Assembly: GCA_030832905.1 (NCBI GenBank)
Contig: JAURIG010000009.1
Coordinates: forward strand, 1-35,344
DNA from: Bacteroidota bacterium
GTDB taxonomy: Bacteria; Bacteroidota; Bacteroidia; NS11-12g; UBA955
Direction of reading: 5' to 3'
DNA length: 35,344 nucleotides
In this document: positions 24,990 through 31,617 of the stretch, piece after piece
Numbering within the stretch: position 1 is the first letter of the stretch
How the letters are laid out: each line of letters begins with the position of its first letter
Notes under the pieces: generated by a model
Seen by the model: only the letters and a program-made list of their open reading frames with translations
Databases searched by the model: none
What the model was told of the DNA's origin: nothing
Made by a program: the position numbers and the translations under genes

Positions 24990-27149
24990 TTATTCATAAA
25001 AAATCACTTTGCCGTTTTCGATATGGTACATTGCTCCAACGATTTTGACTGTATTGTCTAGCATAGCATTGTTAATTAATGTGCTATTGGATTTGATGCC
25101 TTCTATCACTTGCATAACATTAATGGCTGCTACTTTGTCTACAAATTCATAATTGTCACCATCTCTATTATCAAGGACCGACGTTTCTGCATTAACCGCA
25201 GGTTGAATTTTTTCTAACAATTGCGATAGGTGCCCTAGCTCTAGATGGTTACATGCGCCGGCTATAGCGCCACATTTGGTATGCCCCAAAACTACAATTA
25301 ATTTAACTCCCATTTGATGAACAGCAAATTCCATGCTGCCTAATATATCTTCATTAAGGATATTGCCAGCTATTCTGACACTGAAGATATCACCAAGGCC
25401 CAAATCAAATACATGTTCTGTGGTAGTTCTGGAATCTATGCAACTAAGAATGATTGCAATAGGGTTTTGGCCCTTTGCAATATTGGCCAGTTGTTGATTT
25501 AAATTTTTAGTGTTATGTGTATTGTTAGTAAACCTATGGTTGCCTGCTTTTAGAATGGCTAAAACTTGATCTGCAGATAAACTTTTTTGCATTGCTTTGT
25601 CGAGATGCAATTTGAATTGACTGTCATTGAGTGCACTATTGAAACCAATTAGATTTAATGCAATGTTTTTTTGAGGGGCAATGTTGTTTTTAAACTCATT
25701 GACAATATCTATCACATCTTGGTCAATGTATTTAGCTCTTGTAGCGTCAATGGTCACTTTTGTGTTGTTTTGAATAGTCAATAAAGTGTTTTTGATTTTA
25801 GCTTTATTCAAAAAAGAAACTTGACTGTTTAATTCAATTATAAGATTTTCTTCTAGGTAATGTGAATTGGTTTTGATGGTAAATGGCGAATGGATATTGT
25901 TCTTAATGATGAATAATATACTGATGATTAAACCTATGCTGACACCAATCAATAAATCAGATAAGACAATGGCTAATATAGTAATAACAAATGGAATAAA
26001 TTGTTTGTAGCCTTTCTTAAACTCTTCTATGTACAAATTGAAAGCGGTTAATTTAAACCCTGTAAAAATCAAAATAGAGGCCAACGAGGCCAGAGGAATT
26101 AAATTCATGATGGGCGCTAAAAAGACAATTGCAATGAGTAAGAACAATCCATGTAATATACTAGAAAGCTTAGTTTGGGCACCCGCTTGAATATTGACAG
26201 AGCTTCTAACGATTACAGATGTAATTGGTAATCCACCAATTAATCCAGAAACAGTGTTGCCAATGCCTTGTGCAATAAGTTCACGATTGGGGTATGCAGG
26301 TCGCTTCTGTGGGTCTAAGTTTTCTAATGCTTCAATATTTAAAAGGGTTTCAATAGAAGCAACTATGGCAATGGTAAAACCAATAACCCATACTTTAGTA
26401 TTTACAATCTGATTGAAATCAGGGAAAGTGAATAATGTTTGTATGGAATTAATTTTAGGGATATTGACTAAATGTGATCCAGAGATAGCCAATGATGGAT
26501 TGATGTTGAGAAACAATAGATTAATTAAAACACCAACTATCACTACAATTAATGAGCTTGGAATTTGTTTGAAAAAAGGATTTCGAATCTTATTCCATAA
26601 TAACAAGATGCTGATTGAAACAATGCTAATGATTATTGCCCCCAACTGAATGAAATTAAGCATATGCATTAACTCAGTAAAGGTGTTCTCTCCATCTTTT
26701 TGATAAAAACTAAAATCTTCCTCAGGGTCAAAGTCGTAACCAACAGCGTGAGGAATTTGCTTTAAAATTAAAATGATCCCAATAGCGGCTAACAATCCTT
26801 TAATTACACTATTGGGTATAAAGTTCGCAATGAATCCAGATTTTAAAAACCCAAATAACAACTGAATAATACCTGCAATGAATACAGCCAACAAAAACCA
26901 TTCAAAAGAGCCAAGCTGGGTAATGCCAGCAAGCACTATAGTCGTTAAGCCGGCTGCCGGTCCACTAACACTGGTGTTTGATGCACTAAAATAACCAACT
27001 ACTATACCTCCAATTACCCCGGCAATTACCCCCGAGAGCAAAGGTGCACCACTTGCTAAAGCTACTCCTAAACAAAGAGGTAGGGCAACTAAGAAAACCA
27101 CTAAGCCAGCAACAAAATCTTTTTTTACCGTTAATGAAGACATATTCAT
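24990..27149 (-). CDS. SulP anion transporter fused to STAS and beta-carbonic anhydrase
   Basis: This 719-residue fusion has a SulP membrane part (1-420, about ten or more spans, with NTSVSGPAAGLTTIVLAG near the start and FTGFKLTAFNLY near the end), a STAS-like domain (about 432-515), and a complete beta-carbonic anhydrase (about 525-719). The zinc ligands are present: Cys570, Asp572 and Arg574 in SCIDSRTTTEHVFDLG, and His623 and Cys626 in GHTKCGA. Such fusions are thought to move bicarbonate and to convert it to or from CO2 at the membrane. ATGs at 27149 and 27143 are both possible starts. It is the first gene of the operon leading into the MbfA-like and MFS genes. Confidence 0.93.
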   Translation of the reverse strand: MNMSSLTVKKDFVAGLVVFLVALPLCLGVALASGAPLLSGVIAGVIGGIVVGYFSASNTSVSGPAAGLTTIVLAGITQLGSFEWFLLAVFIAGIIQLLFGFLKSGFIANFIPNSVIKGLLAAIGIILILKQIPHAVGYDFDPEEDFSFYQKDGENTFTELMHMLNFIQLGAIIISIVSISILLLWNKIRNPFFKQIPSSLIVVIVGVLINLLFLNINPSLAISGSHLVNIPKINSIQTLFTFPDFNQIVNTKVWVIGFTIAIVASIETLLNIEALENLDPQKRPAYPNRELIAQGIGNTVSGLIGGLPITSVIVRSSVNIQAGAQTKLSSILHGLFLLIAIVFLAPIMNLIPLASLASILIFTGFKLTAFNLYIEEFKKGYKQFIPFVITILAIVLSDLLIGVSIGLIISILFIIKNNIHSPFTIKTNSHYLEENLIIELNSQVSFLNKAKIKNTLLTIQNNTKVTIDATRAKYIDQDVIDIVNEFKNNIAPQKNIALNLIGFNSALNDSQFKLHLDKAMQKSLSADQVLAILKAGNHRFTNNTHNTKNLNQQLANIAKGQNPIAIILSCIDSRTTTEHVFDLGLGDIFSVRIAGNILNEDILGSMEFAVHQMGVKLIVVLGHTKCGAIAGACNHLELGHLSQLLEKIQPAVNAETSVLDNRDGDNYEFVDKVAAINVMQVIEGIKSNSTLINNAMLDNTVKIVGAMYHIENGKVIFYE

Positions 27150-27333
27150 TTTGTAAAGTTAAGCTTTATCATTTAATCGCTGCATAGTTTTTACAAACAG
27201 TCTAAAAACACTCACAAATTTTTGATTACTAAATTTGTATCTAGATGAAAGTGCTAAATAAAGGTCGCTATCAATACTTGCAAGGATTTAGATAATAAAT
27301 CGTCTAATTAGGTTTACTTTGTAATCGATTGAG
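27150..27333. other. 184-base divergent intergenic region
   Basis: This gap separates the minus-strand SulP-carbonic anhydrase operon from the plus-strand ECF sigma cluster. It contains a TAnnTTTG-like box on the plus strand (TAAATTTG at 27230-27237), the AAGGA-N14-CGTCTAA element described separately (27282-27307), and an AATCGATT palindrome near the sigma start. No ORF or RNA structure is evident in it. Confidence 0.5.
27282..27307 (+). promoter_or_regulatory. putative ECF-type promoter of the sigma gene
   Basis: AAGGA at 27282-27286 is followed by 14 bases and CGTCTAA at 27301-27307, itself preceded by AAAT. The same AAATCGTCTAA occurs before the YHYH gene at 30242-30252, with AAGGA 15 bases before its CGTC. 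A CGTC -10 is common among ECF-dependent promoters in other bacteria. It lies 33 bases (from CGTC) before the sigma ATG at 27334, so autoregulation is the natural reading. This is inferred from repetition and position only. Confidence 0.5.
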
Positions 27334-27861
27334 ATGCTGGATATTGAACAAACCTATATAGTTTATCATAAAATGGTGTTTAATACCGCTTTACATTATT
27401 TGCAAAACAAGGAAGATGCAGAAGAGGTTACACAAGATGTTTTTGTGACGGTATACAACAAACAAGCTGCTTTTGAGGGCCGAGCCAATTTGAAAACTTG
27501 GATCTACAAAATTTGCATCAACAGGTGTTTGGATTGTATTAAAGCCAAAAAAAGGAAAAAAAGATTGTCTAGTGTATGGACGTTTTTCAGTGATATGCCC
27601 TTACACAATGATATAGCTGTTGAGGCTTTTCATCCTGAAACAGCATTAGTGCAAAAAGAAGCCTTATTGCAATTAATGAATCAGATTCAGAAATTACCGG
27701 ATCAGCAAAAAACCGCTTTGATTTTGAGTAAGTTTGAGCAATTGCCCCAGTATGAAGTGGCTGAAATTATGGGGGTTTCAGTTAAAGCAGTGGAATCATT
27801 GTTATACAGAGCGAAACAAAATTTGAATAAAATGCGCCTAAAAAATGAAGGAAATGAATAA
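27334..27861 (+). CDS. ECF-type RNA polymerase sigma factor
   Basis: This 175-residue protein has only regions 2 and 4 of the sigma-70 family. Region 2 covers about 5-72, with NKEDAEEVTQDVFVTVYNKQAAFEGRANLKTWIYKICINRCLD the core/-10-binding part, and region 4 covers about 108-163, with LPDQQKTALILSKFEQLPQYEVAEIMGVSVKAVESLLYRAKQNL the -35-recognition helix-turn-helix. A basic linker (KAKKRKKR) joins them. It directs polymerase to a small regulon. The next gene overlaps its end (17 bases from the first ATG) and encodes a probable membrane anti-sigma partner. The putative promoter upstream contains a CGTC element repeated before the last gene of the cluster. Confidence 0.95.
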   Translation: MLDIEQTYIVYHKMVFNTALHYLQNKEDAEEVTQDVFVTVYNKQAAFEGRANLKTWIYKICINRCLDCIKAKKRKKRLSSVWTFFSDMPLHNDIAVEAFHPETALVQKEALLQLMNQIQKLPDQQKTALILSKFEQLPQYEVAEIMGVSVKAVESLLYRAKQNLNKMRLKNEGNE

Positions 27862-28144
27862 AATTAACGTCTTAAAGGATATGGAACTAGAGGATCAATT
27901 TTCACTTTTAGCCAATCATGAGCATATAGTGCCATCTAATAATCTGTTGAACAAAATTCAAGCACAAATCTTCTGGCAAGAACAAGCCTTGTGGTCTAAA
28001 CCCAAAACCATAGTGATGCTTTCCATAGTCCTTATTGTTATCATGTTGAATGTTTTGTTTATCTGGTCTGCCTATGTCAAAGGCCCAATAGATGCTTCGC
28101 AAATGTCTACAGAATTTACAATCAATAATCAATTGTATAAATGA
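27845..28144 (+). CDS. single-span membrane protein, probable anti-sigma factor
   Basis: This protein is 99 residues (or 96 from the ATG at 27854), with an acidic cytoplasmic part (1-54), one transmembrane helix (about 55-77, TIVMLSIVLIVIMLNVLFIW) and a short outer tail of about 22 residues. It has no recognised domain. Size, topology and place directly after an ECF gene match anti-sigma proteins such as CnrY of Cupriavidus (about 95 residues), which holds the ECF factor at the membrane until a periplasmic partner senses metal. It overlaps the sigma gene by 17 bases (8 from the later ATG) and the next gene by four (ATGA). The assignment is by context, not by sequence resemblance. Confidence 0.65.
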   Translation: MKEMNKINVLKDMELEDQFSLLANHEHIVPSNNLLNKIQAQIFWQEQALWSKPKTIVMLSIVLIVIMLNVLFIWSAYVKGPIDASQMSTEFTINNQLYK

Positions 28145-28575
28145 ATAAAATTAAATTTTTAAATTCTGCCTTATTGGTTTTGTTCTTGGCGAATTTAGCC
28201 TGGTTGTTTTTGTTTTTAAACAGACCCAAGCATAGGCCTGAAGGCCCCAAACAGCTTATTATAGATCAACTTCAATTTGATGCAGAACAGATTCAAGCCT
28301 ATGATGCGCTTATTCAAGTTCATAGAACACAAATTCGATCTCTTGATGACAGTATTCAAGTCTATAAATCCAGTTTATACAGGCATTTAGACAGTAAGGA
28401 TAGTTTAGTGCAAAACCACTATATTGAACACATAAATGCCTTTCAGAGACAAATTGAAAACACCCATTTACAACATTTTGTGGCCATTAGGCAGTTGTGC
28501 AAGCCTGAACAACAGGAGGCATTTGTTCAATTGCAATCAAAGTTGGCAGAATGGTTTAAACCGCATAAAAAGTAA
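28141..28575 (+). CDS. membrane-anchored Spy/CnrX-like periplasmic helical protein
   Basis: Of 144 residues: an N-terminal anchor (about 7-27, LNSALLVLFLANLAWLFLFL), then an all-helical periplasmic domain with LTxxQ-like echoes at FDAEQIQAYDAL (46-57) and LCKPEQQEAFVQLQ (119-132). This is the pattern of the Spy/CpxP and heavy-metal-resistance (CnrX, ZraP) families. Histidines at 61, 82, 93, 97, 109 and 112 are candidate metal ligands. In Cupriavidus, CnrX (148 residues) binds Ni/Co and relieves CnrY inhibition of the CnrH sigma factor; here the three sizes 175/99/144 parallel that set. It may sense a metal, probably copper given its neighbours. Confidence 0.7.
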   Translation: MNKIKFLNSALLVLFLANLAWLFLFLNRPKHRPEGPKQLIIDQLQFDAEQIQAYDALIQVHRTQIRSLDDSIQVYKSSLYRHLDSKDSLVQNHYIEHINAFQRQIENTHLQHFVAIRQLCKPEQQEAFVQLQSKLAEWFKPHKK

Positions 28576-28587
28576 TGGTATAGTCCC

Positions 28588-29229
28588 ATGATGCGTTTGC
28601 TCATTTTAATGTTATTGATAGCTGTTAATGGTTTTGCCAAACCCATCACCTGTACATTTAAATTAAGCTTGCCTTCCCAACAAGATTCATTTCAATTGGA
28701 AGTGTTTAAATGTTATCTGTCCAATTTTAGATTATACAGCCAGAGCAATGAATTGATATTCTCAGATACCAACGCGTTTTTAATTGAATTGTCCGACTCT
28801 GTTTTAACCCATACAGTTACAATTGATTGTCCTGTAAACGTTACCCCAAAAACCATTGTTTACAGCATTGGCTTAGATAGTGTATGCAATACTTCAGGGG
28901 CTTTGTCTGGGGCATTAGATCCCTTGAATGGTATGTTTTGGACCTGGCAAAGTGGATACATTCATCTAAAGTTGGAGGGAAAGTATTTTAAAAATTCAAG
29001 TCCAAAAACAGCATTGGAATTTCATTTGGGAGGGTATCGTTGGCCTAATGCAACTTTGATAGATAAACAGGTAGATATTAAGTCTGATAAAATCTTTGTA
29101 GATATACAATTAAATGTATTTTTAAAACATTTGAACGAAGGTGTTTCGACTAAAATAATGTCACCAGGCCCTTTGGCTAAACAAGTCTTTAATGCTTTTT
29201 CAAACAGCTTTGTACCTATGCAACCATGA
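28588..29229 (+). CDS. MbnP-like copper-binding protein
   Basis: This 213-residue exported protein has the signal peptide MMRLLILMLLIAVNGFA. The middle carries YSIGLDSVCNTSGALSGALDPLNGMFWTWQSGYIHLKLEG (92-131) and LEFHLGGYRWP (143-153), the core of the MbnP family. MbnP of Methylosinus trichosporium binds copper only after the di-heme enzyme MbnH oxidises one of its tryptophans to kynurenine. Here Trp118 and Trp120 in FWTWQ and Trp152 are the candidates, and His146 a possible ligand; which one is modified cannot be read. The stop overlaps the MbnH-like gene by four bases (ATGA). Methanobactin genes are not seen nearby, so this is a stand-alone MbnP-MbnH pair. Confidence 0.85.
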   Translation: MMRLLILMLLIAVNGFAKPITCTFKLSLPSQQDSFQLEVFKCYLSNFRLYSQSNELIFSDTNAFLIELSDSVLTHTVTIDCPVNVTPKTIVYSIGLDSVCNTSGALSGALDPLNGMFWTWQSGYIHLKLEGKYFKNSSPKTALEFHLGGYRWPNATLIDKQVDIKSDKIFVDIQLNVFLKHLNEGVSTKIMSPGPLAKQVFNAFSNSFVPMQP

Positions 29230-30242
29230 AACTTAAACTGTTCATGATATTGATTTTAATGGGCTTGCTAATGGCTTTCAAAGGTGTAAAACAGCATTAT
29301 TGGCCGAATTATTTCCCTGAACCTGTTCAAGCGCGAATTCAAACGACATACACTCCAGAAATGCGAGCATTGGGCAGAGTATTGTTTTACGACCCAATAC
29401 TCTCTGCCGATAGTTCTGTATCCTGTGCATCTTGTCATAATCCTTACACCGCATTTGCGCATACTGACCATGCTTTGAGTCATGGTATAGGTGATAGTAT
29501 AGGGAAAAGAAATGCCCCTGCTTTGTTTAATCTAGCATGGCAATCTGCTTTTATGTTAGATGGGGCGGTCAATCATATAGAAGTGCAGGCATTGGCTCCA
29601 CTAAGCGCCTCAAATGAAATGGCTGAAACACTTGAGCATGTTTTGACTAAGTTGAATCGATTGCCTCGCTATCAGGCATTATGTGCTTCCATACAACAGA
29701 GTAAAAGCATCAGTTCAAGCCTGTTTTTAAAATCATTGGCTGCTTTTGTTTTGTCATTAAATAGTTTCGAATCTAAATACGACAGTGTCAAACGGCATCA
29801 AAGCACTTTCACTACTCAGGAAGCCAAAGGGTATGAAAAGTTTAAACAGTATTGCAATGCTTGCCATGCAGAACCTTTGTTTACCAATTATACCTACCAA
29901 TACAATGGATTAAGCCTTGATCCTCAATATCCTGATTTAGGGCGCTATGCCATTAGTCTCAATCCAAAAGATTCTTTTGCGTTTAAAGTGCCCAGTCTTA
30001 GGAATATTTCTTATACCTATCCATATATGCATGATGGAAGATACAAGACCTTGCAAGCTGTATTGAATCATTATGCAGAAAAGCAAGTCAGTGCCAAACT
30101 GAACAATAACGTAACGACTGTTTTTCCACTCAGCGCCAATGATCAACTCGATATCATTGCCTTTTTGAAAACCCTCAATGATGTTCAATTCTTGTTCAAT
30201 AAAGACAATCTATTTCCTAATGACAAAGGAAATAATCCATAA
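29226..30242 (+). CDS. di-heme MbnH/MauG-like enzyme (cytochrome c peroxidase family)
   Basis: This 338-residue protein has an N-terminal membrane/signal segment (about 4-19, KLFMILILMGLLMAF). It carries two c-type heme motifs, CASCH (67-71) and CNACH (210-214), in the bacterial cytochrome c peroxidase/MauG layout, with the RNAPALFNLAWQSAFMLDG segment (95-113; Trp105 between the hemes) and the SYTYPYMHDGRYKTLQAVLNHY stretch (262-283; Met268 region as in the C-terminal heme pocket). Positioned directly after the MbnP-like gene, it is best read as MbnH, which oxidises an MbnP tryptophan to kynurenine using peroxide. A plain hydrogen-peroxide-scavenging peroxidase is the alternative. The YHYH gene follows after 31 bases. 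Confidence 0.86.
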   Translation: MKLKLFMILILMGLLMAFKGVKQHYWPNYFPEPVQARIQTTYTPEMRALGRVLFYDPILSADSSVSCASCHNPYTAFAHTDHALSHGIGDSIGKRNAPALFNLAWQSAFMLDGAVNHIEVQALAPLSASNEMAETLEHVLTKLNRLPRYQALCASIQQSKSISSSLFLKSLAAFVLSLNSFESKYDSVKRHQSTFTTQEAKGYEKFKQYCNACHAEPLFTNYTYQYNGLSLDPQYPDLGRYAISLNPKDSFAFKVPSLRNISYTYPYMHDGRYKTLQAVLNHYAEKQVSAKLNNNVTTVFPLSANDQLDIIAFLKTLNDVQFLFNKDNLFPNDKGNNP

Positions 30243-30252
30243 AATCGTCTAA
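30226..30252 (+). promoter_or_regulatory. putative ECF-type promoter of the YHYH gene
   Basis: AAGGA (30226-30230) lies in the last codons of the MbnH-like gene, then 15 bases, then CGTCTAA (30246-30252) within AAATCGTCTAA (30242-30252), identical to the element before the ECF gene. CGTC is 28 bases before the ATG at 30274, close to the 33 at the sigma gene. A primary-sigma TAAGTTTG box (30250-30257) overlaps it, so both polymerases could act here. Confidence 0.48.
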
Positions 30253-30273
30253 GTTTGTAAATCACCCTAAAAT

Positions 30274-31617
30274 ATGAAATCTATATTAGTCCTTTTCACC
30301 TGCTTCACACTCCAATTGAGTTATGCACAAGGTCCTGCAATTACTAGTTGGTTGCAAAATTCAACCATAAAAGGCTCACATTATGTGAATGGCAATTCTA
30401 CCGCTATAGCAGATACTGCTCTGGCCAATATTAGAACAGTATCGTATTCAAGTAACTGGGTTTACATTAAAACCAATGGGGTGCCAACATATACCACTGG
30501 GCCATTTTTAGATGGCAACCCCTCTTTAACAACAGCTCAAAATGCCATCTTTAAAATTTCCTTAAATCCTGTTAAAAACACAGGCACACCAAGTCCAACT
30601 ACAGGCGGCAATATCGGCCAATTTATTAATGGTGTGGCCTTGTTTGATTACAGAGATGGTGTTTCTTGGAGCAATACGGCTAATGCCTTAAAGGGTGGTC
30701 CTTTAGGTGGCATGGGAGATAATGTTTGGAACAGAGATGCGGTGGTTGCTGAGAAAAAAGGTTTCGATTGTTCAAAGGGACATCCTGCAATGGGTAATTA
30801 CCACCACCATCAAAATCCTTCTGCGTTCAAATTGGATCGTCAAGTGATTTCAAGCATTTGTAATTTGTACGATGCGGATGGTTTATATGCCATCGACACC
30901 ACTAAACATTCACCCTTGATAGGTTTTGCAGCAGATGGTTTTCCGATCTATGGTGCTTATGCCTATAGAAACATCAATGGCACTGGTGCCATTACCCGAA
31001 TCAAATCGGCTTATCATTTAAGAGCCATTAGCGTAAGAAATCAATATGCCAATGGCAGTAATGTAACGGCTGGCCCTGCAGTTAGTTCAACTTATCCTTT
31101 AGGGTATTTCAGAGAAGATTATGAATTTGTTCAAGACACTGCTCAAGATGTGCTTGATGCCAGTAATGGTAGATTCTGTATTACACCAGAATACCCCAAT
31201 GGCATATATTGTTATTTCGCTACTGTAGATGCCAACTGGAATTCTGCTTATCCTTATGTTGTTGGGCCAAATTTCTATGGCGTTAAAAATGGGGCAAAGG
31301 TGAACTCAATCACCGAACCCGTTACACAATATAAACCAACCACCAAGGTGCAAGCTTTAAGCGATGATGCATTTGAATGTTTATTGTTTCCTAATCCGGC
31401 TAATCACACTTTGGCTATTCAATACAAAGGATTGTTGTCTTCTGATTTAACCCTTCAATTAATGGATTTACAAGGCCAGTTGCTTCAAACCAAGCTACTA
31501 AAGCAGGGAAGTACTATTGTCTATTTTGATGTAGAAACTTTATATGCGGGTAATTATATTGTATTGATTCAATCTGAACAACAACAAATTGCCAAACGCA
31601 TTAGCATTCAGCATTAA
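30274..31617 (+). CDS. YHYH-domain protein with T9SS sorting tail
   Basis: This 447-residue secreted protein has the signal peptide MKSILVLFTCFTLQLSYAQ. The body contains the family motif as NYHHHQNP (175-182), preceded by DYRDGVSWSNT and CSKGHPAMG, and followed by GFAADGFPIYGAYAYRN and NGIYCYFATVDANW, the conserved core of the YHYH family (PF14240-type), whose function is unknown. The histidine cluster could hold a metal. The final 75 or so residues (FECLLFPNPANHTLAI ... GNYIVLIQSEQQQIAKRISIQH) are a T9SS type A sorting domain, so the protein should be released or anchored at the cell surface. It is the last gene of the ECF cluster and has its own copy of the putative ECF promoter. It ends two bases from the dnaE stop. 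Confidence 0.87.
   Translation: MKSILVLFTCFTLQLSYAQGPAITSWLQNSTIKGSHYVNGNSTAIADTALANIRTVSYSSNWVYIKTNGVPTYTTGPFLDGNPSLTTAQNAIFKISLNPVKNTGTPSPTTGGNIGQFINGVALFDYRDGVSWSNTANALKGGPLGGMGDNVWNRDAVVAEKKGFDCSKGHPAMGNYHHHQNPSAFKLDRQVISSICNLYDADGLYAIDTTKHSPLIGFAADGFPIYGAYAYRNINGTGAITRIKSAYHLRAISVRNQYANGSNVTAGPAVSSTYPLGYFREDYEFVQDTAQDVLDASNGRFCITPEYPNGIYCYFATVDANWNSAYPYVVGPNFYGVKNGAKVNSITEPVTQYKPTTKVQALSDDAFECLLFPNPANHTLAIQYKGLLSSDLTLQLMDLQGQLLQTKLLKQGSTIVYFDVETLYAGNYIVLIQSEQQQIAKRISIQH

Follow-up and report, generated by a model that had tools for sequence, protein, structure and literature searches.

Organization of the locus

The DNA analyzed here (the window) is a 35,344-nt stretch of a Bacteroidota bacterium genome (assembly GCA_030832905.1, contig JAURIG010000009.1). 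It carries a six-gene cassette encoding an extracytoplasmic function (ECF) sigma factor, a short putative anti-sigma factor, a membrane-anchored periplasmic sensor, an MbnP family protein, its MbnH/MauG-type di-haem partner and a YHYH-domain protein with a sorting tail for the type IX secretion system (T9SS) (Table 1). A first-pass annotation, made from the sequence alone, had proposed that the first three genes form a metal-sensing switch, probably for copper, that controls the other three. All six open reading frames were confirmed, in position and strand, by reading-frame and domain checks, and matches to PF14240 and Por_Secre_tail bear out the T9SS-tailed YHYH protein downstream of mbnH. 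Two elements absent from that annotation are added here: a promoter-like box, and an unlinked multicopper oxidase gene that the box appears to join to the cassette.

Table 1. Genes of the cassette and promoter-like boxes in the window.
Feature	Position	Strand	Basis
Box AAGGA-N14-CGTCTAA	27282..27307	+	Upstream of ECF gene, intergenic
ECF sigma factor, 175 aa	27334..27861	+	Pfam Sigma70_r2 E=1e-13, Sigma70_r4_2 E=3.5e-16
Box AAGGA-N15-CGTCTTA	27848..27874	+	Sigma/anti-sigma junction; position conserved in relatives
Putative class-II-like (CnrY-type) anti-sigma factor	27881..28144 (first reading 27845-28144, 99 aa)	+	Position, size, single hydrophobic span
Membrane-anchored CnrX-fold periplasmic sensor (predicted), 144 aa	28141..28575	+	AlphaFold2 model, Foldseek, VIA-align, CnrX profile alignment
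MbnP family protein, 213 aa, signal peptide, GMxWxW motif	28588..29229	+	PF20243 E=1.3e-29, above cutoff
MbnH/MauG-type di-haem protein, 338 aa, two CxxCH	29226..30242	+	CCP_MauG E=2.8e-44
Box AAGGA-N15-CGTCTAA	30226..30252	+	Between mbnH and YHYH gene
YHYH-domain protein, T9SS type A sorting tail, 447 aa	30274..31617	+	PF14240 E=1.4e-55; Por_Secre_tail PF18962 E=4e-11

The sensor stop and the mbnP start are 12 bases apart, and mbnP and mbnH share an ATGA overlap. Of the two overlaps previously noted within the sigma trio, the one between the anti-sigma and sensor genes (28141-28144) is real. The 99-aa reading of the anti-sigma gene runs across the box at the sigma/anti-sigma junction, whereas the corresponding proteins of relatives, mostly 80-102 aa long, begin downstream of this conserved junction box. 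For this reason, ATG 27881 (giving 87 aa) is more likely to be the start than ATG 27845, and the sigma/anti-sigma overlap is therefore probably a start-codon artefact.

A promoter-like box shared by the cassette and a distant oxidase gene

An identical stretch, AAATCGTCTAA, lies upstream of both the ECF and the YHYH genes, with AAGGA ahead of each copy at a near-fixed distance. The pattern ARGGA-N14/15-CGTCTWA has exactly four matches in the 1.95-Mb genome, and its reversed control has none. One match precedes the ECF gene, a second falls at the sigma/anti-sigma junction and a third precedes the YHYH gene. The fourth is on a different contig from the cassette, with a multicopper oxidase gene (G000:C10:3801) just behind it. 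Since the pattern was derived from these same four sites (three in the window and one at the oxidase), the test it provides is that no other match occurs in the genome. A generic sigma-70 promoter and terminator scan performed no better than on shuffled sequences. A further box-like match at positions 71-97 of the window was judged to be due to chance. We suggest, from its sequence and placement, that the box is the promoter recognized by the ECF sigma factor.

Conservation of the cassette and the box in related genomes

Besides the window, 13 relatives from two families of a single order have the gene order ECF, anti-sigma, sensor, MbnP, MbnH, YHYH, and so do more than 20 named loci, some of which belong to genomes already among the 13 relatives. 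The gene order is thus not due to chance. MbnP-like genes as such are more widespread (38 of 39 related genomes), and many of them are part of paralogous MbnP/MbnH pairs that have no sigma gene. The genome of the window itself has a second pair (G000:C66:15852-16214) with neither sigma genes nor a box. In 19 of 20 related genomes that lack the cassette, this YHYH type is absent, and none of the 20 has a sensor match stronger than 9e-7; four of them have weak sensor matches, versus 1e-17 to 1e-36 in genomes with the trio.

When named genomes were searched with the YHYH alignment, 80 loci were obtained, nearly all from metagenome-assembled genomes (MAGs) labelled Bacteroidota. They include one named isolate, Fluviicola chungangensis (MAH-3), and one MAG labelled Kapaibacterium. 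In some relatives, extra genes are found between those for MbnH and YHYH or further downstream, encoding a T9SS-tailed multicopper oxidase, a sulfatase, a redoxin or a T9SS-tailed 286-aa protein. Two of the cassettes (L035 and L045) contain a T9SS-tailed sulfatase and redoxins.

The box follows the cassette into the relatives and these loci, where it marks two places, the sigma/anti-sigma junction and that of MbnH with the following gene. A full box is present at the sigma/anti-sigma junction in 18 of 28 named loci (0.16 expected), at the junction of MbnH with the next gene in 12 of 27 (0.24 expected), and behind MbnH in 8 of 28 loci that have no linked sigma gene (0.25 expected). Fluviicola has near-identical boxes (AGCGAGGGTT...GTCGTCTAAC) before its anti-sigma gene and before its second YHYH gene, the latter behind a terminator-like hairpin. 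Additional box-like matches that lie antisense within an apparent coding gene (L101, L103) or within a protease-like frame (L102) were judged to be fortuitous.

The gene that adjoins the cassette on the other side in the window, at 24990-27149, is divergent and encodes a SulP-like transporter fused to an apparent beta carbonic anhydrase (∼718 aa, named by eye). This neighbour recurs in five loci of relatives (L034, L035, L036, L139, L150).

Physically separated genes remain tied by the box

The first-pass annotation had regarded a usual separation of the sigma trio from the MbnP-MbnH pair in related genomes as an argument against a joint system. Such separation is found in about half of the cases: where the sequence upstream of an MbnP-MbnH locus is long enough to judge, an ECF gene is linked to it in 22 loci and not in 21. 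This does not refute the regulon, since 12 of 16 tested genomes with a sigma-less MbnP-MbnH-YHYH locus carry the trio elsewhere, and in 8 of these 12 a GAAGG-type box is present at the sigma/anti-sigma junction. When 22 whole genomes were searched, 38 stringent box matches were obtained. Of these, 28 are located at sigma/anti-sigma junctions or at the starts of sigma genes, of the gene following MbnH, of oxidases or of YHYH (lipoprotein) genes; eight of the ten others were inspected. In three genomes (G055, G059, G064), the box lies ∼50-60 bases ahead of an oxidase gene that has no linkage to the cassette, and in two (G039, G041) it precedes an oxidase directly behind MbnH.

Two other placements were observed. 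One stringent box is 48 bases before a gene whose product, judged by eye, is a secreted protein of arylsulfotransferase type (L219, G060:C34:33687). In two close genomes (L206, L224), a box lies ∼147 bases before a glycoside-hydrolase-like gene, which could be a further target or a chance match.

The -35 half of the box varies with the recognition helix of the sigma factor. Of 32 sigma factors with a lysine in the region-4.2 helix (xKAVES), 29 are paired with A[AG]GG boxes, compared to 2 of 16 for other sigma factors (Fisher p=1e-7). A subgroup with valine or isoleucine in this helix has GCCAGAA at equal spacing, a pattern that is clearest at the sigma/anti-sigma junction.

The strongest argument for a single regulon is that genes which have become physically separated stay tied by a common box. 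On these sequence grounds, the sigma trio, MbnP-MbnH, YHYH and the oxidase very probably belong together, and the single-regulon proposal made from the window is upheld by a promoter-like box present both in cis and in trans.

The sigma factor and its putative anti-sigma partner

The sigma factor has regions 2 and 4 according to Pfam, as a module of the CnrH/Y/X type requires, and is 23% identical to CnrH across 160 aa (pairwise E=3e-18). The protein encoded next to it has one hydrophobic span and a size like that of CnrY, and searches with Pfam and NCBIfam profiles gave no family match above cutoff for its 99-aa form. A C-terminal tyrosine is found in 80% of the anti-sigma sequences (n=44). 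By analogy, this 87-99-aa protein would bind the sigma factor. An asparagine is conserved within the membrane spans of both the anti-sigma factor (84%) and the sensor (98%), and might mediate pairing of the two within the membrane.

The sensor resembles CnrX but has an altered metal site

By sequence, the sensor gives a match to Metal_resist (PF13801) that is below the family cutoff (E=0.0014) and a weak match to Spy. Its AlphaFold2 model has a predicted local distance difference test score (pLDDT) of 87.5, and the best Foldseek matches of the model are the structures of CnrX and NccX (probability 1.00, TM-score by target up to 0.78, E 0.02). With VIA-align, the model superimposes on CnrX with Z-scores up to 11.8 (106 residues at 2.5 Å), compared to 8.3-9.0 for CpxP and Spy. 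The modelled fold is thus CnrX-like. The profile alignment with CnrX of pMOL28 is colinear and places H112 on the ligand His119, whereas Lys37, Ile41, Ile58 and Ile116 replace the ligands His42, His46, Glu63 and Met123, so that the predicted structure is without the Ni/Co site of CnrX. The residues that are conserved instead, in 53 sensor sequences, are C120 (96%) and H61 (89%), along with H112 (81%). They may form a cysteine-containing site for a soft metal.

The MbnP, MbnH and YHYH proteins

In MbnP, W118 and W120 of the conserved WxW motif and H146 are kept in all 65 sequences compared. The adjacent MbnH matches the di-haem CCP/MauG family and has two CxxCH motifs; its match to NCBIfam TIGR04039 (E=3.4e-47, 161.2 bits) is below the equivalog cutoff of 362.85 bits. 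By analogy with known pairs, MbnH would convert a tryptophan of MbnP into kynurenine here. The YHYH domain is unambiguous (PF14240, 188.7 bits versus a cutoff of 25), with His170, His177, His179 and His212 invariant. No relative of solved structure was identified by sequence for MbnP or the YHYH domain, the matches of the YHYH protein being confined to its T9SS tail. The AlphaFold2 model of the YHYH protein is of low confidence (mean pLDDT 47.8).

A proposed regulon for copper-associated envelope proteins

The reading that best accounts for these observations, to which we assign a probability of about 0.7, is a compact ECF regulon for copper-associated envelope proteins. Anchored in the inner membrane, the CnrX-fold periplasmic sensor would work with the short single-span anti-sigma factor, and the latter would hold the sigma factor inactive. 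A signal at the sensor would free the sigma factor for transcription from ARGGA-N14/15-CGTCTWA. The junction box would then drive the genes for the anti-sigma factor, sensor, MbnP and MbnH, and the other boxes those for the sigma factor itself, the YHYH protein and the unlinked multicopper oxidase. MbnH would oxidize a tryptophan of the MbnP WxW motif to kynurenine and MbnP would bind copper, while the oxidase and the YHYH protein would act at the cell surface.

Several observations weigh against parts of this reading. Helical bundles give middling Z-scores even against unrelated chains, and a conserved cysteine and histidine cannot identify a metal. With the reversed pattern as a control, ∼29 matches were obtained across the 22 genomes; stringent matches are therefore not rare, and it is their position that counts. 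The covariation of helix and -35 half is confounded and inflated by shared ancestry. Some cassettes, mostly those with serine in place of the helix lysine, have no recognizable box. Finally, residue 111 in the MbnH of the window is a leucine, whereas 65 of 71 cassette sequences carry at this position the tryptophan of a WDG motif, which we take to be the inter-haem tryptophan; maturation of MbnP could therefore be altered in this organism.

Copper is the most likely theme of the cassette because of the invariant MbnP residues, the presence of multicopper oxidases, which are copper enzymes, and the binding of copper by CorA and MopE of methanotrophs. Whether copper is also the signal is about an even question. 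The sensor perhaps reads Cu(I) through His61, His112 and Cys120. Induction by copper excess is possible, though on balance unlikely, and induction by shortage somewhat less likely still. In the latter case, MbnP and its surface partners would capture copper when it is scarce, as do CorA and MopE, kynurenine-copper proteins encoded beside MauG-like partners, which bind copper near the kynurenine and are repressed by copper (PMC3912023). Export of the partners to the surface would suit such scavenging. However, we noticed no gene for a TonB-dependent receptor among those of the cassette, multicopper oxidases usually serve tolerance or copper-dependent metabolism, and CnrX-type sensors are, as a matter of general knowledge, switched on by bound metal. 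As a full account, we put forward tentatively, at somewhat less than even odds, a copper-sensing ECF regulon that extends across the phylum Bacteroidota. Its cysteine-containing sensor of the CnrX type would detect Cu(I) in the periplasm, and its single sigma factor would govern targets in cis and in trans: the kynurenine-copper protein and its maturase, and, at the cell surface, a multicopper oxidase and a YHYH protein. Jointly, these targets would form a copper-handling or copper-oxidase system of the outer surface.

The sensor could instead respond to envelope or redox stress, reading misfolded or oxidized envelope proteins through its conserved cysteine in the manner of Spy and CpxP, with the copper proteins as mere clients. 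The match of its fold to CpxP and Spy (the latter weakly also by sequence), the loss of four CnrX ligands and the redoxin genes that join the cassettes of relatives are all compatible with this. We consider it unlikely, roughly between the two modes of copper induction: CnrX outscores both proteins, and the regulon as found has copper-associated targets and contains neither proteases nor general chaperones. Sensing of nickel or cobalt (or zinc), as in Cnr and Ncc, would agree with the fold and with the alignment of H112 to His119. It is argued against by the loss of the remaining four CnrX ligands and the presence of a 96% conserved cysteine instead; the cassette also has no efflux pump. We rejected a Ni/Co sensor, which has a very small probability. 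Almost as improbable is that the box is another conserved element, such as the site of a separate regulator or an RNA leader. It does overlap stop codons at two junctions and is missing from some loci, but the intergenic copy before the ECF gene and the copies before unlinked oxidases exclude coding constraint. The -35 half of the box tracks the recognition helix of the sigma factor, and the Fluviicola copy is just behind a terminator-like hairpin, before a YHYH gene.

Relationship to known systems

We know of no regulator for most MbnP/MbnH pairs. The open-licence literature on MbnP with MbnH reports no regulon of this type, which is weak evidence of absence. The same literature held nothing on YHYH with multicopper oxidases or on ECF factors with copper oxidases or peroxidases in Bacteroidetes; on CnrX with ECF factors in this group, it covered only anti-sigma factors in general. 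The regulon is very probably real, conserved and built from known kinds of parts, and undescribed as far as the open literature shows. It predicts, from sequence, a sigma factor, a promoter box and partner genes across Bacteroidota, including the cultured Fluviicola chungangensis MAH-3, such that the signal becomes directly testable. It also places the YHYH family in a common context with a set of multicopper oxidases of the cell surface, and offers a natural series of sigma/-35 pairs for studies of ECF promoter recognition.

The MbnP/MbnH pair of the cassette resembles the pairs defined by TIGR04052/TIGR04039 (GenProp0940), as well as CorA/CorB and MopE/SACCP, in combining an MbnP protein with a conserved Trp motif and a di-haem MbnH/MauG-type partner. 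These 'mysterious partners' are known well beyond methanobactin producers (PMC3621798). The pair studied here differs in scoring below the NCBI equivalog cutoffs, in having no methanobactin operon, and in being joined to a YHYH protein and a multicopper oxidase, with an ECF switch and its sensor of the CnrX type in control. An ECF sigma factor near a copper-related operon is also found in the FecI/FecR-type MbnI/MbnR system of Methylosinus methanobactin operons (PMC3621798). However, that system has a TonB-dependent receptor and a FecR-type sensor rather than a CnrX-type one. Spy, CpxP and ZraP share the helical hairpin fold and an LTxxQ-like end (LCKPEQ in the sensor), whereas the sensor is membrane-anchored, encoded with a sigma/anti-sigma pair and nearer to CnrX in fold.

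The closest parallel is CnrYXH of Cupriavidus metallidurans pMOL28, in which an ECF sigma factor, a short single-span anti-sigma factor (putative in the window) and a membrane-anchored sensor of the CnrX fold likewise occur together. The CnrH/Y/X-like module claimed in the first-pass annotation is supported by a sensor model that fits CnrX best and a single-span putative anti-sigma factor of CnrY size, beside MbnP-MbnH-YHYH. A 40-aa 'YHYH domain-containing' protein encoded beside cnrY on pMOL28 (L235, 12905-13027) seems to share only the name. A plain analogy with Cnr is opposed by several differences. The gene order is H-Y-X here and Y-X-H there; CnrYXH drives an RND (resistance-nodulation-division) efflux pump, whereas the targets here are MbnP, MbnH, YHYH and an oxidase, with no such pump; and, of the five metal ligands of CnrX, only His119 has its equivalent here, with substitutions at the other four positions and a conserved cysteine in addition. 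The sensor is thus an example of the CnrX fold with a changed metal site.

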